A DNA stretch of 64,000 bases from the IMG/VR virus record IMGVR_UViG_3300033153_010326, positions 1-64,000 of that record, one strand, 5' to 3'. The position numbers and the translations under genes were made by a program. The stretch is from a virus. The notes beneath the pieces are model-generated. The model was given only the letters and a program-made list of their open reading frames with translations, had not been told where the DNA came from and did no database searches. Positions 14,805 to 58,739 of this stretch are shown here, one piece after another (the stretch's first letter is position 1; the number at the start of each line of letters is the position of its first letter).

Positions 14805-16616
14805 TTATTCGGTATCTTTGGGAGGGTTAAGTAATTTCTTTAGTAATTGTTCTTTCATTTTTGCAATATTTAAATTTTTTTCTTCTAAAACTTCTTTCAT
14901 CATTTTATTTCCAGCTTCATCCATAACATCTTCTTCAAATCCTTCCATTACTTCTTCAATCATAGATTTGCTAATTTTTATTCTAGCGGAGACCTTAACC
15001 CAACGACCTTCTTTATTTTTACGAGCTATTTTAGAAATTAAAGCCCAAGCTATTTTACTAGCTTGCTTATCATTTCCGTAAGTTTTATATGCTTGATTGA
15101 ACACCTTCATCCAAGTTCGAGCCAAACTCTTCGTCATATTATCTTTAACTCTTTTAGGCAAGTCTTTTATATTTTGATAAGGAGCTATTTCTAAATCCTC
15201 TATATTTTTAGATAAATCATAATCTTTTTTCTCATTTCCTTTTTTATCATCTGGAATAGGTACTCCTCTTTTATCAGTTTCTCCTTCTTTGCCTGGAATA
15301 TCAACTCCCATTCCTTCTCTATTTTCAGTTATTCTAGGATACATCTTTTCTTCTATACCTTCTTCAGTCTCTTTTTCTGTTCTCATAACTTCTGTCCTAA
15401 AATCAACTTCAGCAATAACTTCTACTGCTGTTTGGTTAGATATTTTTCCACCCTTCCAAAGAAGCCTTACAAGCTGTTTAAATTTATCAGTCATGAATCC
15501 TCGAACTGGAGATGCAGTAACATAAAATTCTAAATTCATCCATTTCTTATTACTTTTATTTTTCTCAATAATTTTTAAAACTAAATGATAAAGGATTTGT
15601 TTAAAATCATCAACTCCAGTTTTTACTTCCTCTATAAAAGCTTTAGGATTTAATATACTTTCTCTACGAGAACTAGAAGTTCCTTCAACAACATCTATAA
15701 AACCCAATCCTGTAAGTATGTTTCTTTCAGCAGTTTCAAATAAAGCAGGTTCAAATATATTTTTTATATCTGGAATTATATGGTCTATTTGTTCATCAAA
15801 ATTGGTAGTTCTTACTGGAGCTTTTATTCTATGGTCTCCCATATTACTAGATTTAATATCGTCCATTAATTTTTGAAATTTCTTTTTAACCTCTATTAAT
15901 TCCTCATCTTTATATATTTTTGTACTATTAATTGCAAGAGCTTCTGTTCCTTTTTTTATCAATAACATATAAGGTATAACTTGTTCTAAAACTTCAATTT
16001 CTTTATTTTTGAGAGATTGTATAATTTTCCAATTATGAAATACTCCTCTTTTAATAAGAAAAGGAGTTGGATATTTATCAAACCATCTTCCATAAGGTCT
16101 TGCAAAAATTACATCCTTTCCTAATAATTGATATTGTTTCTTTTCTGTATTGCCTATATAATAATCATAATTAAGCAAACTTATAGCATCCTCGTCTTTT
16201 TTCTTATCTTTAGCATATATACTCCCACCATCCACAAAAAACATACTAGTAGGTAGTTGTAATCCATCAAATCTATCCCATTTCATTTTTAAAACAGGAA
16301 AAGAACCTCCCTTCCATCTTTCTTTAAAATATTCTTTAGCTAAATTTTTTATACCTATAGGAATTTGCCCATCGTATTCAGTATTAACACTATCAAGCCA
16401 TTTTTGAAATATTTTATTTAAATTATCATTAGGAGTTACTATATTATAATCCACAGTTGCCGAATTAACAGCAAAATCTGTTAAAGAATCTATCAATCCT
16501 GAAACATCATCTTTTAACATAGTATTTATTTCTTGAACTTGATTATGAAAATCAGAAGGCACTGTGATACGTTTCATTAAAAATGAGAGTATATAATTTA
16601 TATAATTAGAATCCAT
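14805..16616 (-). CDS. Portal protein with C-terminal ChaB-like domain
   Basis: 603 residues directly after terL. Residues ~1-420 have portal character: an N-terminal helical part, a long mixed segment (FARPYGRWFDKYPTPFLIKRG) and a helical stem/clip region (LTGLGFIDVVEGTSSSRRES). A linker of charged residues follows, then at ~480-560 a ChaB-like domain (IKDLPKRVKDNMTKSLARTW, FNQAYKTYG, ASKIAWALISK, GRWVK). ChaB modules occur in some phage proteins; here it is fused to the portal. A coiled coil ends the chain. Confidence 0.75.
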   Translation of the reverse strand: MDSNYINYILSFLMKRITVPSDFHNQVQEINTMLKDDVSGLIDSLTDFAVNSATVDYNIVTPNDNLNKIFQKWLDSVNTEYDGQIPIGIKNLAKEYFKERWKGGSFPVLKMKWDRFDGLQLPTSMFFVDGGSIYAKDKKKDEDAISLLNYDYYIGNTEKKQYQLLGKDVIFARPYGRWFDKYPTPFLIKRGVFHNWKIIQSLKNKEIEVLEQVIPYMLLIKKGTEALAINSTKIYKDEELIEVKKKFQKLMDDIKSSNMGDHRIKAPVRTTNFDEQIDHIIPDIKNIFEPALFETAERNILTGLGFIDVVEGTSSSRRESILNPKAFIEEVKTGVDDFKQILYHLVLKIIEKNKSNKKWMNLEFYVTASPVRGFMTDKFKQLVRLLWKGGKISNQTAVEVIAEVDFRTEVMRTEKETEEGIEEKMYPRITENREGMGVDIPGKEGETDKRGVPIPDDKKGNEKKDYDLSKNIEDLEIAPYQNIKDLPKRVKDNMTKSLARTWMKVFNQAYKTYGNDKQASKIAWALISKIARKNKEGRWVKVSARIKISKSMIEEVMEGFEEDVMDEAGNKMMKEVLEEKNLNIAKMKEQLLKKLLNPPKDTE

Positions 16617-16648: not shown

Positions 16649-18277
16649 TTAATCAAAACTAGTACCGCTTCCCATTTCACTTCCATTTATAGATTTTATA
16701 TCATTAAAATTTCTAAGTTTCCATAATACAATACTAAAAACTCTAAAAGCATCAAATAAATGGTCTCCTATACTACTAGGACATAAGAATTTTTTTCTTT
16801 GACCAGTTATAGTAGATATTACAGCATTAAGCATTTTATCAAATCTATAATCCATCGGTAACTTAAATTTTTGATTATAAAGTAAATGTTTCAATCTTAC
16901 AACTGACCATTCAGACATAAACTCTTCTTTATAAATTGGCTTACCATCTTTAATAATCTCTTTACCCTTCTTATCTTTTTGAAATCCTACTTTAACTTTA
17001 CTATTTCCAGCATATCTAATAACATGTTCAATACCATAAAGGTCTTCTAATTTATCGGATAAACTCCTACCAAAAGCTTCTCCACATTCTATACCTATAA
17101 TATTTGCTTTAGTATTTTCAATTATATATTGAAAAATTGCTATTTGTTGTTCTAATTTAAGATTATAAAGACTTATATTATATAAATACCTATATGTATC
17201 ATTCACTTCTGAAATAATAATTATATCAGTTCCACCAGCACCATCGCCGACATCAGCACAAACATAAATATTTTCGGAATTTTTAGGACGTTCCACCGTA
17301 ATTATATCTTTAAAATTATTAAATCTTTCTTTTCTAATTTCAAATCTTTTAATTTCTTTATTTTCTAAATAATTTTCTCTTACCAAATCCATATCAAACT
17401 CAACCCTACCAGATTCTATAATCTCTCCTTCAACAAATACTAAATAATCAGTAGAACTTTTACCACCATATTGTTTCTCTTTAGCTTTTCTTTTCTTATC
17501 AGTCCAAGACCACCGATTCACGTATTGGGGTAAATTTAACCGTTTTTTTCTATTCTCTAATTTATAAAAAGCCTCACCTGCGGGCATATGTTTAGTAAAA
17601 TTTGTCATACCAGCAAAACGCTCAATCATTCCAACTTCAGCCGTCGCCTCAATTCGTTTCTTAAAAGACTTCTCACTCTCAAATGAACTTTCCTCCATCC
17701 ATAGCTTCTTAAAATGCTTCTGAAAAAATTGACTTCCTTCATCTTTTCTGGCTTTTATATTCATATTAACACCTGTCAAAACCCAGCCATTTTTAGCTGT
17801 CATTTTATAATTTGGATGAGCACGAATTTGACCAGATAACCATTCTTTTAAAATTGGATGTCTTTTTAAAGCATCTGCTATAGTATCTAATACTCCTCTC
17901 AAATGTATTAAATCAAGAGATGTAAATCCACAAGGATAACCATCGTCGTGTAACATGGAAATAGGAACATCTAATAATTCAGTTACGAGGGTTTTGCCGA
18001 ATAACCTGGCTCCGTAGTTATAAATATCCGCAACATTTTTTCTTAGCTCAAAAGTTTCGGGGTCGGAAAGACTATGGTATTCCTGCATAGCATCGAAATC
18101 ATAAAGTGGCTCTTGTGAGAGCATTGGGATTTGATAATTCCGTATATTACCAAAACGCTCTTCATCAAATTGGGTTAGATTGTCAAAGTTGTTAAAGAGA
18201 CATTCAATAAGAATTTCTGGTGTGTGCCAAGCCTCGCAAAATTCTAACTCTTCCAAATTTAGTTTTTCAAGCAACAC
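16649..18277 (-). CDS. terL: Terminase large subunit
   Basis: DNA-packaging motor ATPase and nuclease. The start is GTG 18277 (RBS TGGAGG, 7 bases), giving 542 residues; an ATG at 18316 would lie inside the HNH gene without RBS. Walker A-like GARLFGKT (~residue 80), Walker B-like KKLWMEESSF (~190), then an RNase H-like nuclease with acidic residues in CADVGDGAGGTD, IGIECGEAFG and GDHLFDAFRV. Length and order fit phage terminases. The first 19 bases overlap the end of the HNH gene. Confidence 0.9.
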   Translation of the reverse strand: MLLEKLNLEELEFCEAWHTPEILIECLFNNFDNLTQFDEERFGNIRNYQIPMLSQEPLYDFDAMQEYHSLSDPETFELRKNVADIYNYGARLFGKTLVTELLDVPISMLHDDGYPCGFTSLDLIHLRGVLDTIADALKRHPILKEWLSGQIRAHPNYKMTAKNGWVLTGVNMNIKARKDEGSQFFQKHFKKLWMEESSFESEKSFKKRIEATAEVGMIERFAGMTNFTKHMPAGEAFYKLENRKKRLNLPQYVNRWSWTDKKRKAKEKQYGGKSSTDYLVFVEGEIIESGRVEFDMDLVRENYLENKEIKRFEIRKERFNNFKDIITVERPKNSENIYVCADVGDGAGGTDIIIISEVNDTYRYLYNISLYNLKLEQQIAIFQYIIENTKANIIGIECGEAFGRSLSDKLEDLYGIEHVIRYAGNSKVKVGFQKDKKGKEIIKDGKPIYKEEFMSEWSVVRLKHLLYNQKFKLPMDYRFDKMLNAVISTITGQRKKFLCPSSIGDHLFDAFRVFSIVLWKLRNFNDIKSINGSEMGSGTSFD

Positions 18278-19005
18278 AATTTTTCCTCCATTATATAAGT
18301 AAAATAAGCATACCAATAATCTCTATTTCCATTCGCTCTAAGATTACATCCAGTACAAGCAGTAATCAAATTATATTCTTTACAATTTGTTTTATCATAA
18401 TCAATATGATGAACATCTAAAACTCTTCCATGAACTACAATATGTTCTTCTTCAGTCATACCACAATTTTGACATTCGAAATTATCTCTAGTTCTTATTT
18501 TATATTTAAATCGTTCATTAAATTCTATAGGATACGGAGCATAACCTTGACCATGAATATAATTTCCAGACAATTTCCCAAATTTACCATAATTAGAAGC
18601 ATTTCTTGGGTCTTTATTTCTATTTTTTTGAGAACAACTAGGACATCTACCTTGTCCTTTTAAAGCTGTAGTTAAATGTATTTTATTATTACAGTTTTTT
18701 TCTTTACAATAATATTCTTTTATATATTTTCCATCTTTATAATTATAATTTTTTTCTCCATAATAATGTTTTAAAGTTGGATAATATCCTCTTCGTTTTA
18801 AAGTATCGCTTTGTTTCTTTCTTGATGCTAAAGTACGTTTAAATCCTTTTCTTCTTTGAATATTAAATTTCTTTAAATAAACTAATATAGTCTTTCTATA
18901 AATATTAGTTTCATTTGCTATAATTTGGCAATTCTTTTTTAAACAAGTATAATGTTTAATTAAAAACTTTTTTGTCAAAATTGATTTTATTCTTTTATTT
19001 CTCAT
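18259..19005 (-). CDS. HNH homing endonuclease between terminase genes
   Basis: 248 residues: an N-terminal helix-turn-helix-like part (IANETNIYRKTILVYLKKFN), a zinc ribbon (YYCKEKNCNNKI...GRCPSC), and a C-terminal HNH nuclease (CQNCG, LDVHHIDYDKTN, NLITACTGCN). Insertion between terS and terL with overlap into terL is a common home for such elements. The zinc module is nearly the same as in the 22224-22862 endonuclease although the nuclease differs. Confidence 0.88.
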   Translation of the reverse strand: MRNKRIKSILTKKFLIKHYTCLKKNCQIIANETNIYRKTILVYLKKFNIQRRKGFKRTLASRKKQSDTLKRRGYYPTLKHYYGEKNYNYKDGKYIKEYYCKEKNCNNKIHLTTALKGQGRCPSCSQKNRNKDPRNASNYGKFGKLSGNYIHGQGYAPYPIEFNERFKYKIRTRDNFECQNCGMTEEEHIVVHGRVLDVHHIDYDKTNCKEYNLITACTGCNLRANGNRDYWYAYFTYIMEEKLCCLKN

Positions 19006-22223: not shown

Positions 22224-22862
22224 TTATATGAGACCAAAATTTTGTAAATTAGATTCCATTAATATTTTTATATTTATATTCGGATACATTCTTTTAAATT
22301 TTTTAATTTTATTTTTAGCTTTATCACTAAAATAACCCTTAACTTCTATATATAACTTCCATTCAGGAATATAAAAATCTGGAGTATAAGTACAATCTCC
22401 TAAATCAAAAGTCTTAGATTCATACTTCCATTTATATCCACTTAAATCTAAAAAATAAGCGAATTTAATTTCCCAAGAACTTCTCATCCATATTCTTCTA
22501 TATTTTCCCCATTTTGGATAAATAACTTTTCCATAAAAAGGATTATTTACGCCAGAAATATTTCTTTGTTTCATTCTTAATTTACTTGCACAAGAAGGAC
22601 ATCTACCTTTACCATAAAGTCCAGAAGCAACACTAATTTTCTTATCACAATCTTTACAATAATAATTTTTATCTATTACTCTTTCATCTTTCCAATTTGG
22701 ATTATTTTTTTTAGAAACATCAGCATGGTTTTTACTTATTTGTTTTTTTGATGCTTTAGTGTGTTTTTTTCCATAAAAAGGATTATTTTCGTTTCTATAT
22801 TCTCCTCTTATAGATTTACAAGATGCACATTGACAAGTTTTATTTTTATGTTTTTTTCTCAT
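22224..22862 (-). CDS. Homing endonuclease, NUMOD3 + zinc ribbon + PD-(D/E)XK
   Basis: 212 residues. NUMOD3-like motifs (ENNPFYGKKHTKASKKQIS, VNNPFYGK) flank a zinc ribbon (YYCKDCDKKI...GRCPSC). The C-terminal nuclease has YTPDFYIPEWKLYIEVKGYF, a clear PDx(n)ExK active site. Inserted between two accessory genes; related in the DNA-binding half to the 88-777 and 18259-19005 endonucleases. Confidence 0.85.
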   Translation of the reverse strand: MRKKHKNKTCQCASCKSIRGEYRNENNPFYGKKHTKASKKQISKNHADVSKKNNPNWKDERVIDKNYYCKDCDKKISVASGLYGKGRCPSCASKLRMKQRNISGVNNPFYGKVIYPKWGKYRRIWMRSSWEIKFAYFLDLSGYKWKYESKTFDLGDCTYTPDFYIPEWKLYIEVKGYFSDKAKNKIKKFKRMYPNINIKILMESNLQNFGLI

Positions 22863-22872
22863 ATTAGAATTT

Positions 22873-23703
22873 TTATTTAAGCCAAAAACCTTTTCTCCTT
22901 TCTTTATTTGTTAAATCCCCCACCGTCTTAATATTTTTCTTAACTTCTTCCCATTCTCTTTCATCACAAATATCTACCATATAAATTCCATCCATAAATG
23001 TACGATTTAGCTCTTTGTAGCTCATTGTTCCATAACCTTTATTTCCCCATTGACCCCATGAATTCTTGAAAGATACTCTTTGAATATCATCATTATAAGA
23101 AACTATAACTATAGCGTGTCCCCCCATAGCTCCTTTTAATCTATCACAAAAGGTAGAATCAGGGATTCTCCCTTCCTTTTGACGTTTCCAATTACGATAT
23201 ATTTTAACTCCTATCTCTACAGGTGCTTTCACCAAACATGCTTTAAGCTCCTGCAAATTAGAAATTCGGGTATAACCTGATTCTATCTTAAAAATTTCAG
23301 CAGATTTGTCTGCTCCTTCTAAAGGTTCTCCTACTTTACCTGCAATATATTTCCAGTACTCCTCTTCACAAACTCCATTTTTCACTAATACTTTTGCGAT
23401 TGCAATTAAAGTTGTGCCTTCCTGGTGTCCTGATGCTCTTTTTGCCTTTTCGTATAAATAGCGTTCGCTCAAATCTATAAACCTACCGTAATCTATCTTC
23501 TCTTGAAATTCCTTTACGGCAATTCCAGCGAAAGAAGCACAAGCCCCCTCTGCTCCTTGATTCTTAACAGGAGACATTTGAGATGTCCAATCTACTTTTT
23601 TTGGTAATTCCTTCAATTCCTTTTGAATTAAGCTAGTACACAAATAATCTGTCGGCTTTAGTTTCGATTTATATAGTCCAAAATTAGGGTTTATATTTTT
23701 CAT
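22873..23703 (-). CDS. Papain-family (C1A-type) cysteine protease
   Basis: 276 residues with all papain landmarks: oxyanion Gln and catalytic Cys in SPVKNQGAEGACASFAG (~55), catalytic His in GGHAIVIVSYND (~205), and Asn in FKNSWGQWGNKGYG (~222). There is no clear signal peptide. Such enzymes are rare in phages. Potential roles are cleavage of a host protein or virion processing. It lies next to a 64-residue gene whose stop overlaps its start. Confidence 0.88.
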   Translation of the reverse strand: MKNINPNFGLYKSKLKPTDYLCTSLIQKELKELPKKVDWTSQMSPVKNQGAEGACASFAGIAVKEFQEKIDYGRFIDLSERYLYEKAKRASGHQEGTTLIAIAKVLVKNGVCEEEYWKYIAGKVGEPLEGADKSAEIFKIESGYTRISNLQELKACLVKAPVEIGVKIYRNWKRQKEGRIPDSTFCDRLKGAMGGHAIVIVSYNDDIQRVSFKNSWGQWGNKGYGTMSYKELNRTFMDGIYMVDICDEREWEEVKKNIKTVGDLTNKERRKGFWLK

Positions 23704-53825: not shown

Positions 53826-54848
53826 ATGAAAATTGCAAATAAGAAATTGTTCATAGAACTTTATAATTCAGGTAAAAGTGATTGTGAAATTTCTCAATTA
53901 TTAGAAATAGGAGAAAGAACAGTTTCTAGATATGCTCAAAATTTAAGAGCAAAAAACCAAATTAAATCTAGAAAAGAATTGCAAATTAATTCTAAAGTGA
54001 ATTTAGATAAAGTTAAGGACATAGATATAGAAAAAAATTTAAAACAAGCTCAAACAGATTGGAAAATACCAAAAGGAACTAAAAAAACAGATTCTATAGA
54101 TACTTTTAAAAAATGGCTTTATGTAGCAGACCAACATGTACCTGAACATAATGTTCCTGCTAATAGAGCTATTCATAAATTAATGGATGATATTAAATTT
54201 GATGGATTTCGTATTGTAGGAGATTTTATGGATATGTCTCCGATTTCTCATTGGAACGAGCATAAACGCAAAACTCTTGAAACACAAAGATTAAAGGAGC
54301 ATTATATAATAGGTAATGTTCTTTTGGATGAATATGATAAAAGATTACCTAAAAATTGCAATAAAGGTTATTTTTGGGGAAATCATGAGAATTGGTATAA
54401 TGATTTAATAGAAAAACTTCCAGTATTAGAAGGAATGTTAAATCCTACAGAAGAGCTTCGTCTAATAGAAAGAAATTATAAAGTTTATGAAAATCAAAAT
54501 CATATTGAAAGAATAGGCAGACTTTCAGTAACACATGGAGTATATGCTAATGTTCATGCAGTAAAAAAGCATATTGACGAATTTAAAACCAATGTAATGT
54601 TTTTTCATACTCATAGAATAGGTTCAAGGTCTTCAAGTTCTCCTGCTAAAGAAATAGCTATTATAGGATATAATGTAGGATGTTTATGTGATAAGAATCC
54701 TGATTATCTTAGAAATAGACCTAATAAATGGAGTCTTGGTTTTGCTATTGTTTATTATTTACCAAATGGATTCTTTTTTGTCCAAAATATAAGAATTATT
54801 AAAGGAAAATTTATATATAATAATAAACTTTACGATGGGAATATATAG
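53826..54848 (+). CDS. Metallophosphoesterase with N-terminal HTH
   Basis: 340 residues. Residues 1-40 are a resolvase-like HTH (NSGKSDCEISQLLEIGERTV). From ~97 a calcineurin-like fold: LYVADQHVPEH (DxH), RIVGDFMDMSP (GD), YFWGNHENW (GNHE), RLSVTHGVY, and FFHTHRIG (GHxH-like). Dinuclear metal phosphoesterase; could be a nuclease (SbcD/Mre11-like) or phosphatase. RBS AGGAG. Confidence 0.82.
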   Translation: MKIANKKLFIELYNSGKSDCEISQLLEIGERTVSRYAQNLRAKNQIKSRKELQINSKVNLDKVKDIDIEKNLKQAQTDWKIPKGTKKTDSIDTFKKWLYVADQHVPEHNVPANRAIHKLMDDIKFDGFRIVGDFMDMSPISHWNEHKRKTLETQRLKEHYIIGNVLLDEYDKRLPKNCNKGYFWGNHENWYNDLIEKLPVLEGMLNPTEELRLIERNYKVYENQNHIERIGRLSVTHGVYANVHAVKKHIDEFKTNVMFFHTHRIGSRSSSSPAKEIAIIGYNVGCLCDKNPDYLRNRPNKWSLGFAIVYYLPNGFFFVQNIRIIKGKFIYNNKLYDGNI

Positions 54849-54867: not shown

Positions 54868-55200
54868 ATGAAACTACATGTAGAGAATATATTATCACCT
54901 TACTATACTATAACTGATAAAAAATCAGGAAAAAGGATTCCTTTCTGTGTTTGGGCAAATGATAAGCAGGGAGTTTATAACTGTTATAAAACAGATAAAA
55001 ATAAAAAAGTTGTTGTAAATAAAGAAAACAAAGTTGTAACCGAAACAATAAATAAACCTATTAAGATTATTAGAAATTGTTCATGGATTTATATGTTTTT
55101 TAATTCTATGGTAAGAATTTTTAACCAATTAAGATTACTTAAAAAAATTGAAAGGAGAAAGAAAAAATGTCTAAACCTTACCCCAAGTATGAAAAAGTAG
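54868..55200 (+). CDS. Unknown protein
   Basis: 110 residues. Beta start (MKLHVENILSPYYTITDKKS; IPFCVWANDKQGVYNCYKTD), basic helical end. AAAGGAGG RBS. Its 3' end overlaps the next gene by 34 bases. Not recognised. Confidence 0.6.
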   Translation: MKLHVENILSPYYTITDKKSGKRIPFCVWANDKQGVYNCYKTDKNKKVVVNKENKVVTETINKPIKIIRNCSWIYMFFNSMVRIFNQLRLLKKIERRKKKCLNLTPSMKK

Positions 55201-55436
55201 ACAAAGATACCATAAAAATAATAATGGAAAGAGTACAAGATGTTCCAATACAAAGAATATTAAACAATAGGGAAGTATTGCTGGCTCAAAAAGCAGAGAT
55301 AGAAAAACAATTAGAAAATATTGCTGAAATTATTAAAACAGCTAAAAAATTAGGTATAGATACTACTCTTAAACTTAAACAAGAAGATAAGAACTTTAAA
55401 AAAGGAGGAAATAAAAATGGGAAAGAAAATAGATAA
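55167..55436 (+). CDS. Coiled-coil protein upstream of the capsid-like gene
   Basis: 89 residues: MSKPYPKYEKVDKDTIKIIM, then NREVLLAQKAEIEKQLENIA coiled coil and a basic end. AAAGGAGA RBS. Overlaps the capsid-like gene start; a scaffold- or chaperone-like role is possible. Confidence 0.6.
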   Translation: MSKPYPKYEKVDKDTIKIIMERVQDVPIQRILNNREVLLAQKAEIEKQLENIAEIIKTAKKLGIDTTLKLKQEDKNFKKGGNKNGKENR

Positions 55437-56040
55437 AAATATGAATTTACATATTAAAATTGCTAAAGGTATAAAAGAACCTATTAATGTTTATACTATT
55501 CCAGAATATTTAAGAGAAAATGCTTTTATAAAAGAGGCAACTCCAGAGTCTCGAAGTTATATTATAGAAGCTAAAAAAGTTACTTATATAGATGGTGATG
55601 GTCGTTTAAGTAGAGTTAAAGCAGATTATTATGGAGATTGTGAAATTCCTTTTTCTGGATTGAATTCTAATTTAGAATATATGTCTATAGAAGGGGTGCT
55701 TAAAGGGAATAATGAAGAAGAATTAAACGAAATAAGAATAAAAATAGCAACAGTTATGGATGTAAAAGAAATAAATTTATTAAAATTATTAAGAAAGAAA
55801 ACTATTTTTTCTTGGATTTTTAGAAAGAAAGAAAACAGATATTTTATTTTTATAAAAAGAGGGGTTCCTAGAGAATTAGCAAAAAGTATGGGATTTTCTG
55901 AAAAAATTATGTTAAGAACTCCGATTGTTAATCCTTGTCCAGTTAGTATGTCAGATACAACAAAAGGAATAAAACCAAATACTTTAGCTTATGGAGTCTA
56001 TGGTTACGAATCTTACATTATGGCATTAGTTGAGGTATAA
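55417..56040 (+). CDS. Shortened paralog of the phage's own major capsid protein
   Basis: 207 residues. Residues 58-95 (IDGDGRLSRVKADYYGDCEI, FSGLNSNLEYMSIEGVL) match capsid residues 71-108 at about half of positions. Residues 144-205 (IFIKRGVPRELAKSMG; NTLAYGVYGYESYIMALV) match capsid 271-333, with 11 of 16 identical in the LAYGV...YES...MA block. The capsid stretch ~141-270, which reads as spine helix and P-domain, is missing and replaced by a few basic residues. The gene is intact with an AAAGGAGG RBS and sits in the replication operon on the opposite strand. Possible vertex/minor capsid, decoy or regulatory role. Confidence 0.8.
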   Translation: MGKKIDKNMNLHIKIAKGIKEPINVYTIPEYLRENAFIKEATPESRSYIIEAKKVTYIDGDGRLSRVKADYYGDCEIPFSGLNSNLEYMSIEGVLKGNNEEELNEIRIKIATVMDVKEINLLKLLRKKTIFSWIFRKKENRYFIFIKRGVPRELAKSMGFSEKIMLRTPIVNPCPVSMSDTTKGIKPNTLAYGVYGYESYIMALVEV

Positions 56041-56292
56041 ATGACCAAAAAAACTTTTAAGATAAGAACTCCTATTTGGAAGACTATGAGCGTAGGATTA
56101 GCAGAATATAAGTTAGCTGATATGAATTATGTGGAGATTATATATAGAGCTAATTCTGGAAGAAAATTATTTCCAGATAAATATAGAATTTCTAAAGAGA
56201 AAGTTTTGAAGTATCCAACTCAGTTTGTAGGAGTAAATTTAAGAATTATTCCAATAGAAGATTTAGAAATTGTAAAAAAAAGGAGGAAATGA
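56041..56292 (+). CDS. Small protein between capsid-like and histone-like genes
   Basis: 83 residues beginning MTKKTFKIRTPIWKTMSVGL, with MNYVEIIYRANSGRKLFPDK and a KKRRK end. It starts right after the capsid-like stop, so the three genes are one translational unit. Not recognised. Confidence 0.62.
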   Translation: MTKKTFKIRTPIWKTMSVGLAEYKLADMNYVEIIYRANSGRKLFPDKYRISKEKVLKYPTQFVGVNLRIIPIEDLEIVKKRRK

Positions 56293-56293
56293 A

Positions 56294-56527
56294 ATGGGAA
56301 AGATTAATTATATAAGAGTATCGTCTGTAAAGGGACTTGTAAAGGAACTTGGTCGTAGAAGTGGTAAGGATTTTTTGGAAGAGTTAGATAGAGTAGTTGG
56401 AGAAATAGTAAAAAGAGCTTCTAAGAAAGAAAGTAAGAAGAAAACTTTAGATGCTTCAGATGTTAAAGTAATTGTAGATTCTATGGTAGTAGGAGTACCA
56501 GAAGAAATGGTTAAGGATTCTAAATAA
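56294..56527 (+). CDS. Histone-fold protein
   Basis: 77 residues. Helix 1 VSSVKGLVKELG, loop RRSGKD, helix 2 FLEELDRVVGEIVKRASKKE, then loop KKKTLDASD and helix 3 VKVIVDSM. This follows archaeal histones (VGRIIKxAG...ARHAGRKTIKAEDIELAV) and the single-fold bacterial histone of Bdellovibrio (SKVKAYIK...DGRKTVMDRD). Basic residues sit at both loops. RBS AGGAGG. Probably compacts phage DNA or shapes replicating DNA. Histone-fold proteins have been described in a few phages and bacteria, so this is rare rather than unprecedented. Confidence 0.7.
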   Translation: MGKINYIRVSSVKGLVKELGRRSGKDFLEELDRVVGEIVKRASKKESKKKTLDASDVKVIVDSMVVGVPEEMVKDSK

Positions 56528-56535
56528 TTAAATAT

Positions 56536-56573
56536 TGAGGGAGTTATTTGTAAGCGACCTGACCCCTCCCTCA
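56536..56573 (+). terminator. Terminator after the histone-like gene
   Basis: TGAGGGAG pairs with CTCCCTCA, followed by GTATTATTTTT. Nine bases past the stop. It would separate high expression of the capsid-like/histone unit from the primase. Confidence 0.7.
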
Positions 56574-56596
56574 GTATTATTTTTGGAGGATAAAAA

Positions 56597-56737
56597 ATGG
56601 CTAATAGAATAATTAGAATGAGAAAATGGAGAGCTTCTGGTCATAAGCATAAGAAGAATAAGAAGAGCGTAGCTGACAGAAAAATAATTAAGAATCTTCT
56701 TAAAAAACATACCATAAAGGAAGTTTATGGAATATAA
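56597..56737 (+). CDS. 46-residue highly basic protein
   Basis: MANRIIRMRKWRASGHKHKK, rich in Lys, Arg and His throughout, ending TIKEVYGI. TTGGAGG RBS; overlaps the primase start by 11 bases. A DNA- or RNA-binding peptide by composition. Confidence 0.65.
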   Translation: MANRIIRMRKWRASGHKHKKNKKSVADRKIIKNLLKKHTIKEVYGI

Positions 56738-58739
56738 AAAAATCATCTTATCAAAATTGCTTATCTATTTAAAAAATAAAAAAGTAAAATTAAGTAGAGG
56801 TAATATAAAAACTTTAAAATGTCCCAAATGTGGTAAGACTGCTAATATTATTCCTAATGTTAATGAAATTAATTGTTTCGTTTGTAAGCCAAAGAAATTG
56901 TTAAATCGTTACTGGAATCTTATAGATATAGTAAGAATAATAGAAAAAGATAAAGAAAGTTGGGATGATGAAAAGATTTTACAATATTTAAAGGAATATT
57001 TAGATATTAAAGTTACTACAGAAAAAGATAATCAAGCTATTGAAGATATTTTAAATAAGTATCAAGAATGGGGATTTGATTTAGTACCTATACATGCTAA
57101 TGGTAAAGTTCCATTTGAAATAAAAGATTGGACTATTATACCTCATAAAGAAATATATGAATGGAAAAATTGGCTAAATGATGGTCTTAATATAGGAGTT
57201 AAAACTGGTAAGAGAAGTAATATAACCGCCATTGACATAGATGCTTTAACTAAAGAAGAAAAGAAAGAAATAAGAACAAAGAAAATTTCAAAAGAAAGAT
57301 TAGAAGAATTGATGCAATTAAGACAAGACAGATTAGATAAAGTTTATAAAGAAATGGGAGATATAGTAGGTAATCCTTTAGTACAACATAATCTTGGAGG
57401 TCATCATTTAATTTATCAATATGAAGAAGATATTCGCAAAACTTATATTAAGGTTCAAGATATTCATTTAGATATAGAAAATAATGGAGGTTATATTTTA
57501 CTTGCTCCTTCAAAAGTAGGTAACAATGATTCTAGAAGTTTTAAAGAAAATACAACACCACCTAAAATGCCTGACAAATTAAAACAATTTATATTATCAA
57601 AAATGAAACCTTCTAATAAAACTTATAGTGAAGGTATTATAGAGGATATAAAAACTGAAGATTTTAAAATAGACCCAAAGAAATTTATGTTAAAAAATAA
57701 TCAATTGGAAGGATGTTGTAATACTGAATTTATAAAACTTGGAGGGATTTTACGAAAGCAATTAAATATGAAACAAACAGGTTATGTTCTTAATGTTTTA
57801 AATAAACATATTTTAGAAAAACCAATGGAATCAAAAATGGTAAGAGCAATGTTACAAGAGTTAAATAAATATTCTCAATTTGACGAGACAGAATTAGCTC
57901 ATAAAATTTTAGAATATTTAAAAGATTGTGTAGAAGAAGCTGGTAGAATAGAAATAGCTATGGCAGTAGTTGGAACAAATAGAGGAGAAGATAAAAAGAG
58001 AGTAGATAAAGCTCTTCAGTATTTAATTAGAGAGAAGCAAATTGTAAGAAATGGCAAAGCTTATGAAATTATTGATGATTCGGAATGGACTGAAGAATTT
58101 ATGAATACAGGAATTCCTATAGATTTTAAGATGCCTTATTTTTATGATACTATGTATTTTCACGTCGGAGACCTTCTATTAATTGGAGCTTCTCCTGCAA
58201 TAGGCAAAACTCACATTTCAGTAAATATTATCAAACAATTAGTAGACCAAAATATTAAACCTTATTATGTATCATTGGAAGGAGGGAGTCGCTACGCAAA
58301 AATTGCGAAACAATTAGGATTAAAAGAAGGAGATTTTTCAATTAAAGAAACTTCTAATCCTAATAAAATAAAATTAAAAGATGGAGCAATAACTATTATA
58401 GATTGGATATGTCCTCGTAATTATGCAGAAACTGACAAAGTTTTACAAAATTTAGCTGACAAAGTAAGAGAAACTAAAGGAATATTAATAATTTTTGTTC
58501 AATTAAGAAAAAATGATACTTGGTTAGCTCCAGACCTTATTAATCAATTTCCATCATTTGCTTGTAGATATACTTATGATAAAGAAGATGATGGAGAATT
58601 TGGGAGATTTCATATAGATAAATTGAGAGATGCTAAAGTTAAAATTAAGAATCATAAAATACCTTGTAAGTATTCATGGGATACTAAATTATTTAAGAGG
58701 GTGGATGAATTAGATGAAGATATTAAAGAGACTGGTTAA
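56727..58739 (+). CDS. Primase-helicase (PrimPol + RecA-fold ATPase)
   Basis: 670 residues. Zinc ribbon CPKCG...CFVC (~31-52). Residues ~115-290 are a bifunctional primase-polymerase domain (GFDLVPIHANGKVPFEIKDW, ITAIDID with two metal-binding Asp, NLGGHHLIYQ). A helical linker with winged-helix character follows (~320-450). The C-terminal ~210 form a RecA-like ATPase with Walker A LLIGASPAIGKTHIS and Walker B ITIIDWI, close to RepA/DnaB-type helicases. Combined primer synthesis and helicase for phage replication. Confidence 0.82.
   Translation: MEYKKIILSKLLIYLKNKKVKLSRGNIKTLKCPKCGKTANIIPNVNEINCFVCKPKKLLNRYWNLIDIVRIIEKDKESWDDEKILQYLKEYLDIKVTTEKDNQAIEDILNKYQEWGFDLVPIHANGKVPFEIKDWTIIPHKEIYEWKNWLNDGLNIGVKTGKRSNITAIDIDALTKEEKKEIRTKKISKERLEELMQLRQDRLDKVYKEMGDIVGNPLVQHNLGGHHLIYQYEEDIRKTYIKVQDIHLDIENNGGYILLAPSKVGNNDSRSFKENTTPPKMPDKLKQFILSKMKPSNKTYSEGIIEDIKTEDFKIDPKKFMLKNNQLEGCCNTEFIKLGGILRKQLNMKQTGYVLNVLNKHILEKPMESKMVRAMLQELNKYSQFDETELAHKILEYLKDCVEEAGRIEIAMAVVGTNRGEDKKRVDKALQYLIREKQIVRNGKAYEIIDDSEWTEEFMNTGIPIDFKMPYFYDTMYFHVGDLLLIGASPAIGKTHISVNIIKQLVDQNIKPYYVSLEGGSRYAKIAKQLGLKEGDFSIKETSNPNKIKLKDGAITIIDWICPRNYAETDKVLQNLADKVRETKGILIIFVQLRKNDTWLAPDLINQFPSFACRYTYDKEDDGEFGRFHIDKLRDAKVKIKNHKIPCKYSWDTKLFKRVDELDEDIKETG

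Follow-up and report, generated by a model that had tools for sequence, protein, structure and literature searches.

The virus studied here carries, among its replication genes, a 207-aa open reading frame (ORF; 55417-56040, + strand) that is certainly homologous, as judged by sequence comparison, to the 348-aa major capsid protein of the same virus (1870-2916, - strand), and that has lost an internal block best read, from the structure models, as the core of the A-domain. This paralog is real and unusual, a kind of capsid paralog seen in one virus only, and as its most likely role we propose, tentatively and with less than even confidence, that of an assembly competitor. The window referred to below is the whole stretch of DNA that was analyzed, i.e., the first 64,000 nucleotides of the 104 kb IMG/VR record IMGVR_UViG_3300033153_010326. 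The features on which the argument turns are the following:

1870-2916, - strand: major capsid protein, 348 aa, with a predicted HK97 fold (model pTM 0.62; fold matches in the PDB)
55167-55436, + strand: 89-aa gene overlapping the start of the paralog by 20 nt; found in the same place in the relative G001 (46% identity to g1_18318-18596)
55417-56040, + strand: capsid paralog, 207 aa, apparently without an A-domain (homology; strong Shine-Dalgarno sequence aaaggagga 5' of the ATG; codon log-odds 0.247 in frame)
55417-55782, + strand: N-terminal block of the paralog (aa 1-122), predicted N-arm, E-loop strands and most of the spine helix, matching capsid residues 19-135 (both models)
55783-55848, + strand: junction (aa 123-144), hydrophobic and basic, standing where the capsid protein has about 136 residues
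55849-56037, + strand: C-terminal block (aa 145-207), predicted strands following the A-domain core (capsid residues 272-333, 42% identical)
56041-56292, + strand: 83-aa gene, its ATG directly after the paralog stop; a homolog lies right after the prim-pol gene in the relative G012 (45%, E 3e-19)
56294-56527, + strand: 77-aa gene described earlier as "histone-like"; no family match
56531-56578, + strand: hairpin of 13 bp with a 22-nt loop, followed by ATTATTTTT (-18.2 kcal/mol, z -2.35)
56727-58739, + strand: Prim-Pol/DnaB-like replication protein (PF09250, E 1e-11), which anchors the locus in relatives

That the 348-aa protein is the major capsid protein, as proposed in a preliminary description of this DNA, is supported by its predicted structure and not by its sequence. 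The protein had no significant match in Pfam, PHROG or NCBIfam and no sequence match in the PDB, and the 13 members of its family that we compared had none in Pfam or PHROGs; no match to a known capsid sequence family was thus found, and the assignment of the fold does not require one. An AlphaFold2 model built on the 13 family sequences (pTM 0.62, pLDDT 61) gave Foldseek matches of which the best 50 in the PDB were nearly all HK97-fold capsids or encapsulins (E to 1e-7), including HFTV1 (E 4e-5) and HK97 itself (E 1e-5), and on this model the protein is an HK97-fold capsid protein. For the homologs whose frame was read, the length is 313-342 aa, and the searches yield in all a capsid family of 20 records, unnamed by the sequence libraries used.

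The relationship of the paralog to this family was first noticed as two short blocks (20/41 and 11/16 residues identical). Two homologous blocks are indeed present, and they are collinear, but the similarity is considerably broader: by BLASTP, paralog residues 13-122 match capsid residues 19-135 (40/118 identical, E 5e-14) and residues 145-205 match 272-333 (26/62 identical, E 1e-11), and the resemblance begins at the native N-terminus (KIDKNMNLHIKIAKGIKEPIN in the paralog versus MDKNITLEIARLIGEPID in the relative L004). When a profile of the 13 family capsid proteins was searched against all 2453 six-frame segments of the 104 kb record, the paralog scored 93 bits (E 2.3e-27), ranking below the capsid gene and being the only other match, while the best of 2000 shuffled versions of the paralog reached 11.7 bits. 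Together, the BLASTP and profile results confirm a capsid paralog with an internal deletion, at a sequence divergence of about 63% from the capsid protein.

In the model of the capsid protein, a first set of strands (43-103) and a long helix (115-140) are followed by a middle region (helix 169-180, strand 184-191, helix 193-206, strands 225-262) and then by a last set of elements (strand 270-275, helix 279-284, strands 296-332 and 338-342). The model of the paralog has the first set, the long helix (matched up to capsid residue 135) and the last set, all in capsid order, and everything between them is absent; in the alignment, the missing block corresponds to capsid residues of about 136-258. 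The preliminary description had put the internal loss at about 127 residues; the internal deletion stands, but it amounts to a net loss of about 114 residues between the blocks (136 in the capsid protein versus 22 in the paralog), to which are added about 13 residues at the C-terminus, where the last strand (338-342) is missing. More importantly, the same description had the loss the wrong way round in supposing that the spine helix and P-domain were gone: the long helix and the C-terminal strands are kept, and it is the block after the spine that is lost. Given the order of predicted elements in both models, this helix-strand-helix plus sheet is best read as the A-domain core, so that the paralog would appear to have no A-domain and to keep the N-arm, the E-loop, most of the spine helix and the C-terminal strands of the P-domain. 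The domain limits rest on this element order because HHalign of the capsid family with HK97 gp5 or the HFTV1 capsid protein gave no usable alignment. The paralog model itself is weak (pLDDT 51, pTM 0.41, with capsid proteins included in its alignment) and fold searches with it returned no significant match, although its element order is that of the capsid protein. The idea that the missing block might be encoded elsewhere was rejected, since a profile of the A-block matched neither the paralog ORF nor any other place in the record.

What such a protein might do can be considered in light of better-known shells. In the phi12/SaPIbov5 shells, the A-domains pack around the capsomer centers, the E-loops overlap the spine helix of the neighboring subunit, and the P-domains interact at the threefold axes (PMC8569155); the contacts of gpN in P2/P4 are similar (PMC7552001). 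Since the parts that make edge contacts appear to be kept and the central part lost, the paralog should be able to engage the edges of neighboring capsid subunits through its E-loop, spine helix and P-domain strands and, lacking the A-domain core, would be unable to fill a position in a capsomer or to close one. By joining or capping oligomers of the capsid protein, it could thereby poison or redirect shell assembly.

The same retained edge contacts (as modeled) would also suit a role in the virus's own head, as a minor component or assembly factor placed where an ordinary subunit does not fit (e.g., next to the portal or at vertices). There is precedent in T4 gp24, which forms the pentameric vertices and probably arose by gene duplication (PMC9958956); like the present protein, it shares a genome with the major capsid protein to which it is paralogous. 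However, gp24 forms capsomers, as does the Ccm protein discussed below, and the paralog lacks the block expected at capsomer centers; with the presumed A-domain core gone, it is unlikely to be a gp24-like former of pentameric capsomers. In addition, its gene lies with the replication genes and outside the structural strand, and 19 relatives with the same capsid protein do without it, so that we regard a part in the virus's own head as unlikely.

Two satellite systems offer partial parallels to an assembly competitor. The Ccm protein of SaPIbov5 is a capsid-protein homolog that redirects capsid assembly of its helper phi12 (PMC8569155); like the paralog, it is a diverged homolog of an HK97-fold capsid protein and has its gene away from that of the capsid protein; Ccm shares 24% identity with its CP. 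The two differ in that Ccm, at 355 aa, retains its A-domain, assembles into pentamers and comes from a satellite, whereas the paralog is the virus's own product and seems to lack the A-domain core. P4 Sid is a non-capsid factor that alters assembly of the capsid protein (PMC7552001), but it is a helical external scaffold, not derived from a capsid protein, and acts on the A-domain. Among known relatives of capsid proteins, gp24 and Ccm have kept the ability to form capsomers, and we infer from the models that the present protein departs from them by the loss of the central part; no case of a capsid homolog without an A-domain was found in the part of the literature that our search covered.

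The codon usage of the paralog scores positively in its own frame and negatively in the five others, as is also true of the neighboring genes, which score positive only in their own frames, and a fragment or frameshift artifact was rejected (no stops, normal codon usage). In simulations of neutral drift to 40% or 50% identity, none of 400 runs kept the frame open (mean, 8-9 stops); since the frame is open despite the divergence, the paralog is, on its sequence, a maintained gene whose frame has been kept for most of its history. A decaying, functionless relic of a captured or duplicated gene fragment would account for its occurrence in one virus only, the loss of the A-domain and the long branch described below, but such a relic should hardly show an intact frame after so much change, a strong Shine-Dalgarno sequence, typical codon usage and tight packing between neighboring genes, and we consider it very improbable. 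Within the shared region, 21 of the 40 residues that are invariant in the family are found in the paralog as well; at variable columns it has the majority residue in 8 of 31 cases, and the excess at invariant columns is a weak trend. A PADLOC search gave no match for it.

The location of the gene is as initially described, with the replication genes and on the strand opposite to the capsid gene. Its placement "in the replication operon," however, is no more than close to the mark, because the hairpin and the U-rich sequence after it, which separate the 77-aa ORF from the small basic ORF that comes next, may end the paralog's transcription unit before the prim-pol gene; a strict terminator scan did not list this hairpin. 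The supposed histone next door fared less well: the 77-aa protein had no match to any Pfam, PHROG or NCBIfam family, no PF00808 match was found in the record at E up to 10, and there is thus nothing to class it with the archaeal-type histones. These points bear on the possibility that the paralog was exapted for a role of a different kind, in replication or DNA binding, its capsid ancestry being a matter of history. In favor of such a role are its neighborhood, the loss of half of the invariant capsid residues and its pI of 9.3 (4.8-5.2 in the 13 capsid proteins), together with a strongly basic junction (residues 119-148 carry a charge of +8.8). We discounted the pI as a sign of DNA binding, as the products of the ten early genes examined are all basic (pI 8.8-10.2) and the shift may be compositional; with no recognizable histone beside it, exaptation seems quite improbable.

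At the position of 53826-54848 (+), upstream in the same region, a collinear relative has L010:17175-18293; both encode HTH-metallophosphoesterase-like proteins without detectable mutual similarity. In the structural strand, 22873-23703 (-) encodes a papain-family cysteine protease (PF00112, E 1e-18) and 14805-16616 (-) a 603-aa protein with a C-terminal ChaB domain (PF06150, E 1.5e-8); both are conserved in G001 and G002, and the ChaB-domain homolog in G002 is likewise in the structural strand. Members of one ORF family resembling, on visual inspection, zinc-ribbon/HNH-type homing endonucleases are scattered through the virus (88-777, 18259-19005, 22224-22862, 75127-75849 and 85648-86259, of which 75127-75849 and 85648-86259 lie past the window in the rest of the record) and occupy different places in G001 and G002.

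The paralog was sought in related phages, as had been suggested, and was found in none. IMG/VR searches gave 19 related records, each with a capsid gene, and it is absent from all 19, eight of which are 82-102 kb long and none of which is certified complete. An IMG/VR scan with the paralog alone, a tblastn search of 50,697 phage records with the two proteins as queries and one scan of genome contigs were also without a match, and a scan with motifs common to the capsid protein and the paralog, which would detect any ortholog carrying either motif, found 12 loci, all of them full-length capsid genes. In the collinear relative G001, ORFs of 80 and 73 aa, and no paralog, stand between the homolog of 55167-55436 and the prim-pol gene. 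Homologs of the prim-pol gene occur in six of nine records searched; at the loci in G003, G005, G009, G011 and G012, the flanking genes differ and no paralog was seen. The prim-pol protein of G003 (L063, G003:13500-21000) has 1014 aa, with about 340 extra residues, which could be an intein or an inserted domain, between its matches to query residues 4-522 and 518-666.

The earlier view that the paralog is a copy of this virus's own capsid gene holds as to its being a capsid paralog and is doubtful as to its source. Its identity to the 13 capsid proteins is about equal for all (34-40%), and in the tree it sits on a long branch (1.2-1.9 substitutions per site; 1.9 under LG+G4). Placing it as sister of the virus's own capsid gene was 7.4 log units worse and was not rejected (AU p=0.09); a placement beside the own clade was equally good. 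Three capsid positions (95, 127 and 324) are diagnostic, the ten outgroup capsid proteins sharing one fixed state there and the own clade having a different fixed state; the paralog carries the outgroup state at all three, while at two other columns it shares the state of its own clade. It is therefore probably not a recent copy of the virus's own gene, and the sequences agree better with an ancient duplication or with acquisition from a relative.

Because of this probable outside origin, the location among replication genes and the rarity of the gene, a weapon directed against co-infecting related viruses or satellites would fit better than a part of the virus's own shell. In its most specific form (and a rather doubtful one), the paralog would be a capsid chain-terminator, a copy of a relative's capsid protein without the A-domain that is made early and blocks the shells of co-infecting relatives. 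An assembly competitor is favored by the homology, the predicted element order minus the post-spine block, the open frame with its Shine-Dalgarno sequence and codon usage, the outgroup states at the three diagnostic sites and the absence from 19 relatives; weighing against it, the virus's own shells would be at risk as well unless the protein were specific or diluted out, the model of the paralog is weak and without a significant fold match, and, with 21 of 40 invariant residues kept, the surfaces that contact the capsid may be lost. The early-gene location would also suit a decoy against capsid-sensing host defenses, one that fills the sensor ahead of the arrival of the true capsid protein, without triggering it. 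Such sensing is known from CapRel-SJ46, which the major capsid protein activates, and from Lit, for which the activator is T4 Gol (PMC9712102), but the sequence lends the idea no support and the paralog is basic where true capsid proteins are acidic; we think a decoy very unlikely.

If the assembly competitor is the correct reading, a maintained capsid copy without the part that forms capsomer centers would be a natural dominant-negative design. It would help to show which contacts are the drivers of HK97-type assembly and whether, like satellites, viruses act against the shells of other viruses.
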